Below, piece after piece: positions 35,029-43,053 of a stretch of DNA of 64,000 bases. Each line of letters opens with the position of its first letter. Within the stretch, counting starts at the first letter, position 1. Both the position numbers and the translations under genes were made by a program. This DNA is from Candidatus Zixiibacteriota bacterium (GTDB lineage: Bacteria > Zixibacteria > MSB-5A5 > GN15 > PGXB01). The DNA is taken from NCBI GenBank assembly GCA_900498245.1, contig LS998015.1:743206-807205 (forward strand). Reading direction: 5' to 3'. Below the pieces are notes generated by a model that saw only the letters and a program-made list of their open reading frames with translations, did no database searches and had not been told where the DNA came from.

Positions 35029-35092
35029 AAAAGTTTAATACTTGTGCCACATACAACCGGGCAGATGAAGGTCCCGGTCAATTGGAGGATTA

Positions 35093-36535
35093 ATGAAAGA
35101 CAAACTTAATAACGCCCTTGAATGGCTGAAGGGGAAAGGGGTCGATTACGCTGACGCCCGGATGGTGCGAATCGAGTCGGAATCGATCAAAGTCACCGAT
35201 GATACGGTCGACACATTTTCCCGGAATGTCAATGTCGGCGTGGGGGTGCGGGTAATTTGCAGCGGCGCCTGGGGCTTCGCCGGAGTGTCATCGCTCACCG
35301 AAGCCGATATCAAGAAAGCCGCCAACAAGGCCCTGCAGACGGCCAAAGCCTCCGCTACTACGGTCAAGGACAAGGTGAAATTGGCTCCGACCGAAATTTA
35401 CAAAGATCATTATAAGTCGCCGTGCGAGAAAGATCCGTTCGAGGTGCCGGTACACGAAAAGATCGGACTCTTGATGGAAATTGCCGACCGTCTCCGCAGC
35501 GACAGCCGGATAAAGACGGCGGAATCATCGGCCGATTTCTACAAGACCAAGAAGATTTTCTGCTCGACCGAAGGGGCCGAAATCGAGCAGGATATTATCG
35601 AATCGGGCGCCGGGTATACGGCTATCGCCTATGATGGTAACGAGGTGCAGAAACGTTCGTATCCCAATTCGCATCGCGGTGATTTCGCCACGAGGGGGTA
35701 TGAGAATGTCGAAGGATTGAAACTTCTGGAAAATGTCGATCGGACCCGGGAAGAGGCGATTCAACTTTTGACCGCCGATCCCTGTCCCAACAAGACGACC
35801 GATATTATCATCTGCGGCTCGCAATTGGCGCTTCAGGTGCATGAATCATGCGGTCACCCGACCGAGCTGGATCGGGTTCTGGGGACGGAGATTTCCCTGG
35901 CCGGCGGGTCGTTCATGCAGATCGACGGCCTCAATAAGCTGAAATACGGCTCGGATATTGTCAATATCAACGCCGATGCCACGATTCCGGGCGGGCTGGG
36001 TTCATTTGGGTATGATGACGAAGGTGTCAAGGCCCAGCGGGCGCCGATAATCCGGAACGGTGTTCATGTCGGGTACCTGACCAGCCGGGAAACGGCTCCC
36101 GTAATCGGGCAGACCTCGAACGGCACCATGCGGGCCGACGGCTGGAACCGTCTGCCGATTATCCGTATGACCAATATCAACCTGGAACCGGGGGAGTGGG
36201 AACTCGAGGATCTGATCGCCGATACCAAAGACGGAATATTTTTCGATATGAACAAATCGTGGTCAATCGATGACAAGCGCCTCAATTTCCAGTTCGGCGT
36301 GGAATGCGCCTGGGAAATTAAGGACGGCAAACTGGGCCGGATGCTGAAAAATCCGCTTTATACCGGAATGACGCCGAAATTCTGGAATTCCTGCGATGCC
36401 ATCTGCAACAAGAAATACTGGCATGTCTGGGGGGTGCCCAACTGCGGCAAGGGAGAGCCGATGCAGACGGCGCGCGTGGCCCACGGCACCGCTCCCGCCC
36501 GGTTCCGCCAGATAACGGTGGGGGTGAGCAAATGA
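35093..36535 (+). CDS. tldD: TldD subunit of the TldD/TldE metalloprotease
   Basis: The 480-residue product carries the TldD zinc motif HExxxH as HESCGH at residues 250-255, within ALQVHESCGHPTELDRVLG. TldD/TldE heterodimers thread and degrade unfolded peptides, and in other bacteria mature modified peptides or antitoxins. TldD holds the catalytic metal. GGAGG precedes the ATG. It overlaps tldE by 4 nt (ATGA). No peptide precursor gene is seen nearby. Confidence 0.94.
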   Translation: MKDKLNNALEWLKGKGVDYADARMVRIESESIKVTDDTVDTFSRNVNVGVGVRVICSGAWGFAGVSSLTEADIKKAANKALQTAKASATTVKDKVKLAPTEIYKDHYKSPCEKDPFEVPVHEKIGLLMEIADRLRSDSRIKTAESSADFYKTKKIFCSTEGAEIEQDIIESGAGYTAIAYDGNEVQKRSYPNSHRGDFATRGYENVEGLKLLENVDRTREEAIQLLTADPCPNKTTDIIICGSQLALQVHESCGHPTELDRVLGTEISLAGGSFMQIDGLNKLKYGSDIVNINADATIPGGLGSFGYDDEGVKAQRAPIIRNGVHVGYLTSRETAPVIGQTSNGTMRADGWNRLPIIRMTNINLEPGEWELEDLIADTKDGIFFDMNKSWSIDDKRLNFQFGVECAWEIKDGKLGRMLKNPLYTGMTPKFWNSCDAICNKKYWHVWGVPNCGKGEPMQTARVAHGTAPARFRQITVGVSK

Positions 36536-37884
36536 CCGGAAAAGAAAAACTATTCACGCTGTTTGAAAAAGTGGCCAAGGCCAGCAAGGCCGATGAGACC
36601 GAAATTCTTTATATCGGCAACAATACCGGGCTGACCCGTTTTGCCAATTCGATCATTCACCAGAATGTGAATGAAGCCAACGCCCGGATTATTTTCCGGA
36701 CTGTCTATGGGAAGAAAATCGGGGTGGCATCGACCAATTCGCTCATTCTGAATGATCTCAAAGCGACGCTTCGCAACGCGATGGAAATAGCCAAGTATCA
36801 GAAGGACAATAAATATTTCGACGGCCTTCCCGGGCCGGAAAGTTATCAGCCGGTTGATACCTATTATGATTCGACCGCGGCCTATTCTCCGAAAGATCGC
36901 GCTCGGCAGGTGAAGAAGATATTTGTCCGGGCCAATAAGCGGAAATTTCTGACGGCCGGGGCACTGACAACGGGCGACGGAGAGATAGCGGTTTTCAACA
37001 CCAAAGGGGTCCGCTGTTATCAGCCGTTCACCTCAGCCTCGTTGAATATAATCGCCATGTCGGAGACGTCATCGGGTTACGCGGTCGGTCTTTCGCGCAA
37101 GGTGGAAGATATCGATCCGGTCGCTTTAGCCGATATCGCGGTGGAAAAGGCCTATATCGGGAAAAAGCCGAAACCGCTTGAAGCGGGCGATTATGAAATA
37201 ATTCTCGAGCCGGCGGCAGTGGCGGCCCTTTTCGAATGGGTCAATTATATCGGATTCGGCTCCAAGGGATTTATCGACAAAACCTCCTTCCTCGCCGACA
37301 AAATCGGCCAGAAGGTGATGGACGAATCGGTCAGTATTTATGACGACGGCAATGATCTGTCGGCTATCGCCATGCCGTTCGATTTCGAGGGAGTTCCGAA
37401 GAAGAAGGTCTATCTGGTTGAAAAAGGGATCGGCAAGGGAGTGGTTTTCGACCGAACGACCGGCAACCGGATCGGGACCAAATCGACCGGGCACGCTCTT
37501 CCGGCCGGGGAGCAGGGAGAAGGGGCGATGCCGCTCAATCTCTTTATCGATCCGGGGAATAGGACCCGCGAAGAGATGATCGCCTCGGTCAAGCGGGGAG
37601 TGCTGGTGACCCGGTTCCATTATATCAACGGCTTCATCGACACGCCCAAAGCGCTGCTGACAGGGATGACCCGCGACGGCACATATCTTATTGAGGACGG
37701 CCAGATAAAGCACGGGGTGAAAAACCTTCGATTCACCGACTCGATGCTTCGGGCTTTCTCGAACGTGAAAGGTATCTCGCGGGAGCGCCAGTTGATACCG
37801 TCGTGGTGGGACGCGGTCGGGTGCATTTCGGCGCCGGCATTTCATCTGGGTTCGTTCAAGTTCACCGGGACGACTGAGTTTTAG
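36532..37884 (+). CDS. tldE: TldE/PmbA subunit of the TldD/TldE protease
   Basis: The 450-residue paralogue of TldD lacks the HExxxH motif, as expected for the non-metal-binding partner. It has the PmbA-type C-terminal half (YEIILEPAAVAALFEWVNYI, FINGF-like YHYINGFIDTPKALLTGM). It is translationally coupled to tldD by the 4-nt overlap. Together they should form the heterodimeric protease in the cytoplasm. Confidence 0.92.
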   Translation: MTGKEKLFTLFEKVAKASKADETEILYIGNNTGLTRFANSIIHQNVNEANARIIFRTVYGKKIGVASTNSLILNDLKATLRNAMEIAKYQKDNKYFDGLPGPESYQPVDTYYDSTAAYSPKDRARQVKKIFVRANKRKFLTAGALTTGDGEIAVFNTKGVRCYQPFTSASLNIIAMSETSSGYAVGLSRKVEDIDPVALADIAVEKAYIGKKPKPLEAGDYEIILEPAAVAALFEWVNYIGFGSKGFIDKTSFLADKIGQKVMDESVSIYDDGNDLSAIAMPFDFEGVPKKKVYLVEKGIGKGVVFDRTTGNRIGTKSTGHALPAGEQGEGAMPLNLFIDPGNRTREEMIASVKRGVLVTRFHYINGFIDTPKALLTGMTRDGTYLIEDGQIKHGVKNLRFTDSMLRAFSNVKGISRERQLIPSWWDAVGCISAPAFHLGSFKFTGTTEF

Positions 37885-37891
37885 CGGAATA

Positions 37892-37922
37892 TCAGGAGCA
37901 TGGGGTCAACTCATGCTCCTGA
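37892..37922 (+). terminator. hairpin after tldE, possible terminator
   Basis: An 11-bp perfect stem TCAGGAGCATG/CATGCTCCTGA with a 9-nt loop lies 8 nt past the tldE stop. The following AAAATTCTT is not a true U-tract, so termination efficiency is doubtful. Confidence 0.5.
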
Positions 37923-37931
37923 AAATTCTTG

Positions 37932-37959
37932 TTGACATCTTATCTAATTCCAATATTAT
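37932..37959 (+). promoter_or_regulatory. candidate promoter of the prodomain-protein/subtilase pair
   Basis: TTGACA at 37932-37937 and TATTAT at 37954-37959 with 16-nt spacing lie about 95 nt before the first gene of the pair. Confidence 0.45.
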
Positions 37960-38055
37960 TAATCAAGGCAAATATTCGGTGCATGTTACTGTGCATAGTT
38001 CGCATACAACTGACAGAGCATGAATTGTCTTTGCATATTAAGGAGGGTCGAATCA

Positions 38056-38823
38056 ATGGAAAATTTAGGATTGCTTTTTATTTCTTTCATTTTATTAATG
38101 GGTGGCGCCCCTCAGCCCAAAAATGAAATGGATGACAGTACGCGCACCTCCATCAGGGAATTTGTATTTGGGCATTATCATAAATATGATATAGATACAA
38201 GCGGCTCAGAACCTATGATTGGAGTTATTCTTGAGACGGACGGTAATAGAAAACAGCTTGACTCTATTGGGATGATTATTTACTCCATTGATAGGAATAG
38301 AGTATTTGGGAAAATCCCAATACGGCTGATTTCACAGGTGAGTGGGCTCACTTCAGTAAAGAAATTAATCCCCAATTTGCGACTTTCATTAGATGTCGTT
38401 CCTGGTGAGCGAAAAGGATCCTTGTATCTCTCGTTCGATTCCCTGAATCAGATCGCTTCTGACACAGTGGAAGTATTTCTTCTAAAATACGGTAATTACC
38501 GGGGTGAAGTATCATTTGATACTATTTATCAATATACAGTGCCGTTACAAAACGACACCTCATATTTGATCGGCAATATAGAAGAAGGGTGGTATGACGT
38601 TTATCTTTTCCCGGGTATCATAAAATCACCACCAATCAGGAGAGGAGCGGAATTCTCATTTGAAAGTGATTCACCGGCGATTATTTATAAGAAATTGATA
38701 ATTATGAACCGAATGACCTCCGTCATGGATTTGAGAGGGGAAAAATGGCCCGCTCTTGAAAAAGGGAGCGCCGATTCAGCAGCAGTCATTCAAGAATGGA
38801 TTCCGAAATATCTGAAAAAATAA
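38056..38823 (+). CDS. exported protein with free-standing homologue of the neighbouring subtilase prodomain
   Basis: The 255-residue product starts at ATG 38056 with TTAAGGAGG upstream and has a signal-like segment (LGLLFISFILLMGGAP). Residues about 30-105 align by eye with the prodomain of the next gene: KYDIDTSGSEPMIGVILETDG against LYDIDTTTTPPTIGVIVEANG, and GKIPIRLISQVSGLTSVKKL against CKVPIDSLEILAGLSAVKCY. The rest (about 110-255) is beta-rich and unrecognised, and no catalytic domain is present. Such prodomains act in subtilases as inhibitors and folding chaperones, so this may be a trans-acting inhibitor. The gene lies 24 nt upstream of the protease and shares its AT-rich composition. 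Confidence 0.75.
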   Translation: MENLGLLFISFILLMGGAPQPKNEMDDSTRTSIREFVFGHYHKYDIDTSGSEPMIGVILETDGNRKQLDSIGMIIYSIDRNRVFGKIPIRLISQVSGLTSVKKLIPNLRLSLDVVPGERKGSLYLSFDSLNQIASDTVEVFLLKYGNYRGEVSFDTIYQYTVPLQNDTSYLIGNIEEGWYDVYLFPGIIKSPPIRRGAEFSFESDSPAIIYKKLIIMNRMTSVMDLRGEKWPALEKGSADSAAVIQEWIPKYLKK

Positions 38824-38847
38824 ATTTAATATCTTCGGGAGGCAGGT

Positions 38848-41034
38848 ATGTTGTCAAGCATACGCATATTTATAAGCGTCATTTTTATTCTTGGCATATT
38901 GGCCCATTCTTTATCTTTCGCCGCATCGAAAAGAAATTGGGAGCTTATGCTGGAATATTCTCCTTTATATGATATTGATACCACTACGACGCCGCCCACA
39001 ATAGGCGTTATCGTTGAAGCCAACGGAGACTATCATGATTTGGAGAATGTGGGTGCGGAAATATTGAGTATAAAAGGACATCGGATTAATTGCAAAGTGC
39101 CGATCGATAGTTTAGAAATTTTAGCCGGTCTTTCGGCTGTGAAATGCTACTCATTTAATAGTAAAATTGAATTAGATTTGGATATGAGCGCCGTTGCCAT
39201 AGGTGCGCCTGAAGTCTGCAATCAAAGCGGATATACCGGCAAGAGCGTAATTGTTGGCATTGTGGATGGCGGTATTGACGCACATCATCCAGATTTTCAG
39301 AGGGGTCAAAATAATACGCGATTCCTTTATATTTGGGATCAGATGGACACAAGGGGCTCGCATCCATCTAATTATTATTACGGTTCAGAATACAGCAAGA
39401 GCGATATAGACGGAGGCCAATATATAAATGGTGGGTCGTATTGGACGGATGCTTATGGACATGGAAGTGTGGTGACCGGCATCGCCTGCGGAGGGGGACG
39501 GGTAGGCGGAAATGGCATCGAAGCGGGAAAATATACAGGTATAGCTAAAGATGCAGACATTATTTTTGTTCGGATGCTGCCCTTATATGCAAATATCGAG
39601 GATGCCGTGGAATATATTATCGAAAAGGCAGAATCCCTAAAGCGACCCTGTGTCATTAATTTAAGCCTCGGTTATAAAGGAGGGCCTCGGGACGGTACAA
39701 GCCCATTTGAACGCTTTATGGATAAACTATTGACCGATTATCATGAAAGATCAGTTGTTATTGTCAATTCCTGCGGAAATACCCGATTTGATGCGAACAA
39801 TGCCGAGGTGGCCTTTAATCCACAATTGTGGGGCAAAAATCGTGACCATATAAGATTTTATGATGATGAGACTATGGTGGTAAATGTGGGATCCGGTTTA
39901 TATAATCAAGATTATGTTTCAATAGAAATATGGTATCACGCCAATTCGGAAACGAGAATATCCGTTACAGCTCCATTAATGGATTCGCTTGGTAATAGCA
40001 CTCCATTTTGGATAGGGTCATATGAGTCGGGAAACGGAAATGGATGGCCGGGCGAGGGGTGGGACATGCCAGGTATCGGATTTGTTAAAATTCATAATGA
40101 AGACTGGGATGCAAATCATCCTGATCCATACCCGTATACATATGATCAAGTTGCGACTGTTGAGATAGCTGATCATGATTATGACCTTTCACCCGGCGAC
40201 TGGTTTATAAGTATGAGTGATGTAAATGGACCATGGGATGCCTACATCACATATCAGGATCATGGGCTGAATTTATATTCATTTTTGGAAAATGATGCTA
40301 ATTCATATGAAGTTAATGAACCGGGAAATTCTTCCTATATTATTACTGTTGGTTCAATTAATACAAAAAACAATTGGTATGATTGCCTGGGAATGTCAGT
40401 GCCCGGGCCGGCACCATATGATAAATTTGATGCACTCGGCTTTCCGATTAATCAAATATCTTTTTTCAGCTCGTTGGGCCCTACACGGGATGTCAGAACC
40501 AAACCTGAAATTTACGCCCCTGGTGCTTGGGTCGCAAGCACTTGCCCCGATAGTCTGCTTTATGCATATTCAAGCACAGGTATGAGATATTCATTGGCAG
40601 ATGACTGTCGCCATATCCTTATGCGGGGTACCAGTATGTCCGCGCCCCACGTTACCGGTGTAGTTGCTCTAATGCTCGAAAAAAATGGTTTCCTTTCTCT
40701 TAATGAAATTCGTAATGCATTATTTTCAACCGAATTGGCCAATGGTATGGTTAACGCTCCAGGCGCCATTGCGGCTATTCCTCCGGCCTGCATTCCGGGA
40801 GATGTTAATGGGGATAGAACCATTAATATTATAGATGTGAATGGATTAATTAGTTTTCTATATAAAGGCGGTGCAAGCCCATCACCATATGCAATTTGCT
40901 CGGGCGATGCTGATTGCAATTGTCGGCTAAATATTCAAGATGTATCTACAATTATAAATTTTCTTTATAAATCAGGGCCTTCTCTTGGGGATCAGAATAC
41001 ATGGGTGCGTAATTGCGGCAATCCGCCGCAATGA
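38848..41034 (+). CDS. secreted subtilisin-like protease with prodomain and C-terminal dockerin
   Basis: The 728 residues comprise a signal peptide (to about 26), a prodomain (about 37-112), an S8 catalytic domain with D140 (VGIVDGGIDAHHPDF), H205 (AYGHGSVVTG), oxyanion Asn in NSCGN and S596 (GTSMSAPHVTG), and a type I dockerin (about 650-715; GDVNGDRTINIIDVNGLISF and a second repeat). The long distance between His and Ser reflects an inserted beta domain of about 190 residues. GGGAGGC precedes ATG. Its base composition is much more AT-rich than the flanking genes, suggesting transfer. Confidence 0.9.
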   Translation: MLSSIRIFISVIFILGILAHSLSFAASKRNWELMLEYSPLYDIDTTTTPPTIGVIVEANGDYHDLENVGAEILSIKGHRINCKVPIDSLEILAGLSAVKCYSFNSKIELDLDMSAVAIGAPEVCNQSGYTGKSVIVGIVDGGIDAHHPDFQRGQNNTRFLYIWDQMDTRGSHPSNYYYGSEYSKSDIDGGQYINGGSYWTDAYGHGSVVTGIACGGGRVGGNGIEAGKYTGIAKDADIIFVRMLPLYANIEDAVEYIIEKAESLKRPCVINLSLGYKGGPRDGTSPFERFMDKLLTDYHERSVVIVNSCGNTRFDANNAEVAFNPQLWGKNRDHIRFYDDETMVVNVGSGLYNQDYVSIEIWYHANSETRISVTAPLMDSLGNSTPFWIGSYESGNGNGWPGEGWDMPGIGFVKIHNEDWDANHPDPYPYTYDQVATVEIADHDYDLSPGDWFISMSDVNGPWDAYITYQDHGLNLYSFLENDANSYEVNEPGNSSYIITVGSINTKNNWYDCLGMSVPGPAPYDKFDALGFPINQISFFSSLGPTRDVRTKPEIYAPGAWVASTCPDSLLYAYSSTGMRYSLADDCRHILMRGTSMSAPHVTGVVALMLEKNGFLSLNEIRNALFSTELANGMVNAPGAIAAIPPACIPGDVNGDRTINIIDVNGLISFLYKGGASPSPYAICSGDADCNCRLNIQDVSTIINFLYKSGPSLGDQNTWVRNCGNPPQ

Positions 41035-41295
41035 TTATTTTCGCCAGCAATATTGGACGCTCTCTAATTCCTCCGGATTATGCAAGGCTAGCATCCCTTT
41101 GTCGCCCAATGGACTAGTTTCAAAACTAATTTCACACTTATTGGGCGGTATTTTAATCCCTAGGCCGATTTCAGGCTAGTTTATCCCTAAAATTCTGTTA
41201 GTTTTTTATTCGACAGATCCGCAACTTTGCTATGCCTGAAACCGTAAATAACTCATAGATTGGTATAAGCTTATTGCGCCCAAAGGAGGAAAAGT

Positions 41296-43053
41296 GTGAC
41301 ATTGAAAGTGATCCTGATTGCCGTGGCATTGTTTCTGGTCCTGAGCCTGATTCTTGTGGTCGGGGCGGTATCGGTCAAAGCCGACGACACCGTGATTGAT
41401 ATGACCGATTTCCAAACTGGGGATCTGGTGGTTGACGGCTTCGAATTGAAAGGACAAACCAGGGTCACCATTCACGCTATCGGGGCGGCCCTTAAAAATA
41501 CCGAGGACCTTTATGCCTACGGTTGGATAATCGACGCCGATTCGCGCGAACCGGTCTGGATTCAGAGCGATCAGGAATCGCATCGCTACAAAGGCTCCAA
41601 TTATTTTCGGGAATTCGAGGGGGAAATAACCCTTCCGGCGGGACGTTATGAATGTTATTACTATGCGTCCCGGCCCTTTTATACCGACCTCGATATCAAA
41701 TTCGATGATTTGGGCAAAGCCCTGGAATTTCTGGGAGATTTTATCGGCAAAAATGATGAAAACCAGAAATATTACGATGAAAATCTCGACGCTCTTCTTT
41801 TTGAAATAACCGCCCCGGCCGGTCTTTTTACGAAATTCAATCCCTCCAAAAATATAGGGGAAAACAGTATTATCGAATTTTCCCAGCCGGGCAATGATTA
41901 TACCGGGAAAAAGGGGTTTACTCTTAAAAAGGACCTGAATTTAAAAATAATCGCGGAGGGGGAGTATTCCTCCAGCGACCGGGTTTTTGTCGATTACGGC
42001 TGGATAATAAATGCCGACTCGCGCAAAAAAGTCTGGCAGATGGATAAATGGAACACATCATGGTCGGGCGGCGCCCGCAAAAATCGCGGCTTTATCGGCG
42101 ATGTCAGCCTGCCTGCCGGCAATTATATCGCCTGCTATGTCACCGATGACAGTCATACTTTCGGGGATTGGAACAGCCTGCCTCCCTATGACCCGCTCCA
42201 TTACGGATTCAATATTTATACTCAAAACGCCGCCGATAAGCAGTATGTCGCTCCTTATGAAGATACTTACAGCGAGCCGTTAATTATTTCCTTGACCCAC
42301 ATCGGCAATAATGCCTTTAGATCCAAAGCCTTTACTCTCAAGAAACCGACCGATTTGCATATTGTCGCGATCGGGGAGTACGGCTACGATGATGCCTTTG
42401 TCGATTACGGCTGGATTGAAAATATCGATGATAATGACAAAGTCTGGGAAATGGCCGAAGAGAATACCGAGCATGCCGGCGGGGCCTCGAAAAACCGCAA
42501 ATTCGACGGCATCGTTACTTTGCCGGCGGGGAATTATATGGTTTATTATACCTCCGACGATTCCCATTCCTATGGCGACTGGAATGCCACCGCCCCTCTG
42601 GATCGCGATATGTGGGGTATAACTATTTTCGGCGCCGGCAAGAATTTCGATCCGAAAATGGTCGAAGTGCATGATCAGGAGCCGGCCAATCCCAATATCC
42701 TGGTTAATCTGACCGGCATCGGCGATGACGCCGATGTGGAGGAGGATTTCAAAATTTCCGTGCCGGAGAAGGTGCATATTTTCGCGCTGGGGGAGGGGCG
42801 CGACGGGGAAATGTTCGACTACGGCTGGATTGTGAATAAGAAAAACGGGGAGACGGTCTGGGAAATGACCTATCGCATGACCCGTCACGCCGGCGGGGCC
42901 GACAAAAATCGCAAAGTCGAATCGGATATCTATCTGGAACCGGGTCAGTATGAGGCCCACTTTGAGACTGATGATTCCCATTCTTTCCCGGATTTCAACG
43001 CCGCCCGGCCCGATATGCCGCAGAAGTGGGGCATTACCATCACTAAAAAATAA
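41296..43053 (+). CDS. membrane-anchored protein with four copies of an unrecognised beta domain
   Basis: The 585-residue product starts at GTG 41296 (AAGGAGG, 6-nt spacer) and has one N-terminal membrane segment (about 5-25). Four repeats of about 110-140 residues follow. Each has a YGWI element (residues 75, 234, 371 and 509), then a VW element, a LPAG(N/R)Y turn, and in copies 2-4 a DDSHSxxDWN-type motif and a final WGI(T)I strand. Repeats 2-4 are closest to each other and repeat 1 has diverged. I do not recognise the family. It is probably extracytoplasmic. The Asp/His-rich motif hints at metal or ligand binding, which is inference. Confidence 0.8.
   Translation: MTLKVILIAVALFLVLSLILVVGAVSVKADDTVIDMTDFQTGDLVVDGFELKGQTRVTIHAIGAALKNTEDLYAYGWIIDADSREPVWIQSDQESHRYKGSNYFREFEGEITLPAGRYECYYYASRPFYTDLDIKFDDLGKALEFLGDFIGKNDENQKYYDENLDALLFEITAPAGLFTKFNPSKNIGENSIIEFSQPGNDYTGKKGFTLKKDLNLKIIAEGEYSSSDRVFVDYGWIINADSRKKVWQMDKWNTSWSGGARKNRGFIGDVSLPAGNYIACYVTDDSHTFGDWNSLPPYDPLHYGFNIYTQNAADKQYVAPYEDTYSEPLIISLTHIGNNAFRSKAFTLKKPTDLHIVAIGEYGYDDAFVDYGWIENIDDNDKVWEMAEENTEHAGGASKNRKFDGIVTLPAGNYMVYYTSDDSHSYGDWNATAPLDRDMWGITIFGAGKNFDPKMVEVHDQEPANPNILVNLTGIGDDADVEEDFKISVPEKVHIFALGEGRDGEMFDYGWIVNKKNGETVWEMTYRMTRHAGGADKNRKVESDIYLEPGQYEAHFETDDSHSFPDFNAARPDMPQKWGITITKK
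41502..43050 (+). repeat. four tandem coding repeats of the YGWI/DDSH domain
   Basis: The YGWI anchors are spaced 159, 137 and 138 residues apart. Copies 2 to 4 share GGAxKNR and TDDSH-like phrases in the same order. Confidence 0.8.

Follow-up and report, generated by a model that had tools for sequence, protein, structure and literature searches.

A free-standing prodomain protein encoded directly upstream of a Csp-like secreted subtilase in Candidatus Zixiibacteriota, a candidate trans-acting partner

INTRODUCTION

Prodomains fold and inhibit subtilases, and they are usually regarded as a cis device, one for each enzyme. Free-standing propeptide-like protein inhibitors of subtilases occur in fungi, such as POIA1 of Pleurotus and YIB2 of yeast, members of the Inhibitor I9 family; neither is known to be encoded beside its protease. 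Inhibitors of this type depend on their tails (PMC10580911), and in inhibitory prodomains a free C-terminal tail enters the active site (PMC3567191, PMC10580911). When the prodomain of the Clostridium subtilase CspB is supplied in trans, the protease folds again and its active site is blocked, and inhibition requires the last residues of the prodomain (PMC3567191). The trans prodomain in that study was an artificial construct (PMC3567191), and no report of a natural free-standing prodomain gene for Csp subtilases was found in the literature examined.

Separately encoded partners are known from two bacterial systems. The Aeromonas sobria serine protease (ASP) has a chaperone encoded by the adjacent gene, ORF2, which also inhibits the enzyme by means of its C-terminal tail (PMC5638518). 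In the dentilisin operon prcB-prcA-prtP of Treponema denticola, the upstream lipoprotein PrcB binds the subtilisin-family protease and is needed for it (PMC8167434). This order of a lipoprotein upstream of a subtilisin-family protease recurs in pairs described below, but PrcB is a 23-kDa protein reported to lack homologues beyond the oral treponemes (PMC8167434).

Here we describe a gene pair, P0001 and P0002, in a window of Candidatus Zixiibacteriota DNA (the whole stretch of 64,000 nucleotides that was analyzed). Like ORF2 and ASP, P0001 and P0002 form a two-gene unit with a separately encoded putative partner of the adjacent subtilase. However, ORF2 lies downstream and ASP is described as propeptide deficient, whereas P0001 lies upstream, is a prodomain homologue, and accompanies a protease with a prodomain of its own. 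P0001 shares with POIA1 and YIB2 the property of being free-standing, but it carries an extra C-terminal region, so that about 140 residues follow the last strand, where inhibitors of the fungal type have a free C-terminal tail.

RESULTS AND DISCUSSION

The two genes form one islet

The original prediction placed P0001 a short distance upstream of the protease, and the gap between the two open reading frames is indeed 24 nt (Table 1). The P0001 gene starts with ATG and is preceded by an AAGGAGG ribosome-binding site at 38040-38046, with a promoter-like site farther upstream; no terminator was found between the two genes. The layout is operon-like, and both genes may be transcribed from the same short operon.

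Table 1. Features of the P0001/P0002 locus (window positions) and of three frame-split relatives (positions in their own loci)
Feature	Positions	Strand	Remarks
Islet with gene pair	37888-41242		3355 nt; 84 nt instead in same-genus genome
Promoter-like site TTGACA-16-TATTAT	37932-37959	+	11/12 consensus match only; upstream of pair
P0001	38056-38823	+	255 aa (coding to 38820); free-standing prodomain protein, probably exported; N-terminus hydrophobic
P0001 prodomain-like module	38137-38397	+	residues 28-114; beta-alpha-beta-beta-alpha-beta
P0001 C-terminal part	38413-38820	+	residues 120-255; perhaps beta-sandwich; low pLDDT
P0002	38848-41034	+	728-aa secreted subtilase: signal, prodomain, Peptidase_S8, dockerin-like tail
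P0002 own prodomain	38923-39180	+	residues about 26-111
P0002 dockerin-type-I-like repeat pair	40795-40965	+	PF00404 (Dockerin_1), E=3.5e-4, just under curated cut-off
Terminator-like hairpin	41012-41032	+	at protease gene end; number of such hairpins found near chance
G064 L111	6076-6561 and 4553-6283	-	A9G at prodomain/catalytic junction
G063 L110	3723-4238 and 2203-3918	-	A9G at prodomain/catalytic junction
G004 L112	2316-2813 and 2753-4330	+	A9G at prodomain/catalytic junction

When the same-genus genome (G090, locus L200) was compared with the window by blastn, an empty site was found in place of the islet, its flanks aligning to window positions 35083-37887 and 41243-42650; identities for the flanking genes were 86 and 92%. 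In three other genomes of the same family (L201, L202, and L204), matches to the downstream gene again lay close behind the upstream gene. GC content across the two genes was 0.39 to 0.44, compared to ∼0.53 upstream, and GC3 was 0.38 for P0001 and 0.36 for P0002, compared to 0.59 to 0.69 for neighboring genes. Direct or target-site repeats of at least 10 nt were sought at the islet ends, and none was found. Because both genes share the low GC3 and the sister genome has a clean empty site, the sequence comparison indicates that the pair came or went together, as one islet. The gene immediately behind the islet (41296-43053), which encodes a probably exported protein of 585 aa with several internal repeats, is retained in relatives without the islet.

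P0001 contains a predicted subtilase prodomain and an additional C-terminal region

The original prediction also held that P0001 repeats the prodomain layout of P0002, and blastp, tblastn, and a shuffle test all confirmed the homology. The YDIDT, IGVI, IP/VP, GL..VK, and L.LD motifs fell into one alignment with no gaps across the module. The N-terminal regions were 36% identical over 59 aa (blastp, E=9e-9), and tblastn against the whole genome aligned residues 34-114 with the P0002 prodomain (36% identity, E=9.6e-10), the only match besides P0001 itself. The Smith-Waterman score of the two proteins was 133, whereas 1000 shuffles averaged 36.8 and reached 82 at most (z=19). The product had been described as having no catalytic domain, and neither S8 nor any other Pfam domain was recognized in it. 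Searches of Pfam, NCBIfam, and PDB sequences with P0001, or with the prodomain profiles A2 and A7 introduced below, gave nothing significant, and neither P0001 nor 21 proteins from KSB1 and Calditrichota reached the curated score of Pfam Inhibitor_I9, a further difference from POIA1 and YIB2.

The module was predicted by AlphaFold2 (run on residues 16-255 of P0001 together with 15 related prodomains) with a pLDDT of ∼95 and the order strand-helix-strand-strand-helix-strand; it was the best-predicted part of the model. A Foldseek search of the PDB matched it to the Tk-subtilisin propeptide (2z58_B) with an rmsd of 1.6 Å over 64 columns, a TM score by target of 0.79, and a probability of 1.00, at an E-value of only 0.04. 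The possibility that the N-terminal regions of the two products have unrelated folds thus found no support, as the P0001 module is predicted to have the subtilisin-prodomain topology. Sequence homology and predicted fold together indicate that the module is a subtilase prodomain with an I9-like fold, and this fold matches that of propeptides solved bound to their subtilases.

The ∼140 C-terminal residues, which did not figure in the original prediction, are of uncertain fold. No homologue of this part was found, the only Pfam hit being fn3_3 at E=0.19. A CarboxypepD_reg or similar lipoprotein is encoded directly upstream of related subtilases, in the position that P0001 occupies here, in the Zixiibacteriota genome G100, a Calditrichaceae genome, and a bin named Brocadia (L114:4243-4722, L116:3236-3808, and L117:255-827). 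The G100 lipoprotein was considered as a counterpart of the P0001 C-terminal region and was rejected, as the two do not align.

P0002 is a Csp-like subtilase

P0002 matched Peptidase_S8 with an E-value of 1.6e-37 (Pfam). The triad D140, H205, and S596 and the oxyanion residue N311 are kept, and the triad residues are invariant among three relatives. The nearest PDB relatives by sequence are the Csp germination subtilases (9pr8, 9sj6, and 4i0w); however, P0002 fell below the NCBIfam Csp cut-offs and is therefore called Csp-like rather than a Csp. The dockerin region has ∼75 further matching places across the genome of the window.

Similar pairs in KSB1 and Calditrichota

A scan of named genomes with an alignment of the protease (A3) yielded 13 loci, and in three KSB1 genomes a protein of 122 to 126 aa was encoded upstream of the subtilase. 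A profile built from these proteins had matches in 19 of 82 KSB1 genomes, and a wider profile (A7) had matches in 8 of 40 Calditrichota genomes, six of them with free-standing copies. With each protein counted once, KSB1 and Calditrichota together gave 33 free-standing prodomain-like proteins of about 105 to 130 aa. In 27 cases the next gene downstream, in the same orientation, encodes a Csp-like subtilase that carries a prodomain itself; three copies lie at contig ends, and three are solitary. The gaps were mostly -4 to 60 nt, and 160 to 233 nt in one clade (start coordinates were mechanical, and a few gaps are approximate). Similar pairs of a subtilase and a free-standing prodomain thus occur in at least two further phyla of bacteria. 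Csp-like subtilases of this type were found in 68 of 82 KSB1 genomes, and a partner at only 8 of the 30 best loci, so that the partner belongs to a subset, and proteases of this type can do without it. One contig (G218 contig C234) carries two lipoprotein/subtilase pairs in tandem (L134 and L149).

The relationship to P0001 was evident in a comparison of A7 with the Zixiibacteriota profile A2, which includes P0001 (hhalign, E=9.6e-10, probability 96.5). An AlphaFold2 model of one KSB1 member showed the same strand-helix order (pLDDT 78), and its top PDB fold match was the CspB prodomain (Foldseek, 4i0w_A, E=1.2e-3, probability 1.00). The family is not recognized by Pfam; one of 21 members gave a weak match to CspB_prodomain (E=0.034). 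A search of open-licence papers turned up no description of pairs like these for KSB1 or Zixibacteria.

A simple lipobox pattern was present in about half of the 33 free copies, and others had a Cys at a comparable position. The KSB1 free proteins, unlike P0001, end soon after the last strand. We infer from these sequences that the KSB1 and Calditrichota proteins are natural trans prodomains, and the predicted combination of a free tail and membrane anchoring would suit an inhibitor with a cell-protecting role. Such an inhibitor would remain attached to the cell even if the enzyme diffuses away. This role can be tested in a protein family so far unclassified; it would make these genes natural inhibitor/enzyme pairs, and operon-encoded bacterial equivalents of the propeptide-like inhibitors of fungi.

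Prodomain modules in other Zixiibacteriota

Conservation of the pair in relatives, which the original prediction named as a check, held only in part: the exact P0001/P0002 pair did not turn up in the 132 other Zixiibacteriota genomes searched, the same-genus genome included, whereas equivalent pairs exist in KSB1 and Calditrichota. A search of 133 genomes with profile A2 (11 prodomains, P0001 included) gave 22 places in 17 genomes. Four matches were attached in frame to a protease (P0002, G100 and G085, both Candidatus Zixiibacteriota, and G097 contig C40), and in three (G064, G063, and G004) the prodomain and catalytic part were in different frames. Free-standing or truncated modules without a catalytic C-terminal part accounted for 11 loci (P0001, G013, G097 contig C98 with two modules, G093 twice, G081, G005, G096, G091, G094, and G052), and the last three matches were ordinary subtilases or weak. 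Two secreted proteins have two prodomain modules each and no catalytic domain (L101:4145-5752 and L104:4697-6010); the two-module G097 proteins are near-copies of the N-terminal region of the G097 fused protease (L113).

Several of the 11 loci may be remnants, as in G091, G093 contig C90, G094, G005, and G052 the frame stops inside the catalytic domain. That free-standing prodomain frames as a whole, P0001 among them, are debris of truncated and functionless subtilase genes seems very improbable, however: the P0001 frame is unbroken and follows a strong ribosome-binding site, its C-terminal region differs, and it retains no trace of a catalytic domain, and the KSB1 and Calditrichota proteins are conserved apart from attached prodomains and are fixed in position.

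Free-standing prodomain proteins elsewhere in the phylum have unrelated neighbors. Two prodomain-module proteins without a complete protease are encoded just upstream of such genes, one of DUF5117 (G013, L098:1401-2546, minus strand) and one of a DUF5117/DUF4953 Met-zincin (G005, L103:2219-3436, minus strand). Such neighbors would suit a reading in which P0001 derives from a duplicated P0002 prodomain that was fused to another domain and repurposed as an adaptor or as a substrate-recruiting or matrix-binding protein, keeping the fold and not the inhibition. The extra C-terminal region with no free tail, and the G100 lipoprotein, which lacks a prodomain but occupies the equivalent upstream position, point the same way. 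This reading is nonetheless rather unlikely, given that the position of P0001, the shared islet, and the KSB1 and Calditrichota pairs all indicate a subtilase partner and that the module is the most confidently modeled part of the protein.

Origin of the window pair

In a tree of the prodomains (71 rows, 93 columns), in which many forks are open, free and attached copies were strongly separated, with 5 label changes compared to 23.8 in shuffles. P0001 grouped with the P0002 prodomain (88/55), with G052 next (96/89). This placement suggests an origin independent of KSB1 and Calditrichota: the free copy in the window was probably produced separately, when the P0002 prodomain was duplicated, and the arrangement of a subtilase with a free prodomain thus probably arose at least twice. 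Membership of P0001 in the KSB1 lipoprotein family was rejected; the tree places it beside the P0002 prodomain, and A7 had no free copy in Zixiibacteriota.

Proposed role of P0001

We propose that P0001 is a trans-acting prodomain that most likely works on P0002, a reading to which we give a probability of about 60% on the basis of sequence and model. After synthesis from the same operon, P0001 would be exported and would dock through its prodomain fold on the P0002 catalytic domain. There it could either aid folding of P0002 or re-bind the mature enzyme once its own prodomain is lost, and protease activity near the producing cell would thereby be held down. We infer that P0001 is exported and physically binds P0002, and likewise infer the direction of its effect. 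A role of P0001 as a subtilase partner is favored by homology, the predicted prodomain fold, the short gap, the promoter-like site, the shared islet, the recurrent pairing elsewhere (27 of 33), and the precedents of CspB and ORF2. The long extension after the module counts against a simple inhibitor of the product-like type, and as P0002 has a complete prodomain, a second is not needed for folding. The limited occurrence of the pair in Zixiibacteriota and of the partner in KSB1 also weighs against the proposal. Since the tail of P0001 is not free, P0001 may act as a chaperone, inhibit only in part, or have acquired another role, which is why the probability is not set higher. If the proposal is correct, separate prodomain genes beside proteases with prodomains of their own would set the prodomain-to-protease ratio genetically.

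A narrower version of the proposed trans action is that P0001 serves mainly as a folding chaperone during export, as ORF2 does for ASP, and not as an inhibitor of the mature enzyme. The gene order, by which P0001 is made before the protease, would favor this, as does the finding that the CspB prodomain chaperones in trans (PMC3567191). We consider it unlikely, since ASP is propeptide deficient and P0002 is not, and since prodomains that chaperone are as a rule inhibitors as well. The suggestion that the genes form an immunity-like pair gained no support: no toxin or delivery genes were noted beside the pair, nothing points to a toxin, and the protease has its own prodomain.

Frame-split subtilases with an A9G junction

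In three Zixiibacteriota subtilases from two families, the prodomain is read in one frame and the catalytic domain in another, and an A9G run marks the junction (Table 1). The prodomain frame reads NNA AAA AAA AAG at the junction and meets a stop within 0 to 3 codons, the catalytic domain lies in the -1 frame, and the junction contains an A_AAA_AAG heptamer in phase. No conserved RNA structure was found behind the A9 sites (folding z-scores of 1.4, -2.2, and -0.7), so a stimulator was not supported, and the two recoding surveys searched contain no mention of subtilases. On these sequences, the A9G junction may reflect ribosomal frameshifting, transcript slippage, or phase variation, and if it is real recoding, it would be a means to set the prodomain/protease ratio within one gene.

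It is tentatively suggested that secreted Csp-like subtilases are repeatedly controlled by prodomain supplied in addition to, and separately from, the protease. This extra prodomain would be provided by a paired lipoprotein gene in KSB1 and Calditrichota, by an independently duplicated gene in the window, and by recoding or slippage at A9G, giving a free prodomain and a full protease from one gene, in the three Zixiibacteriota genomes. An assembly error behind the A9 run in all three genomes seems unlikely. This run is the sole A or T run of at least 7 in each locus (L111, L110, and L112; 4 to 11 kb, 51 to 58% GC).
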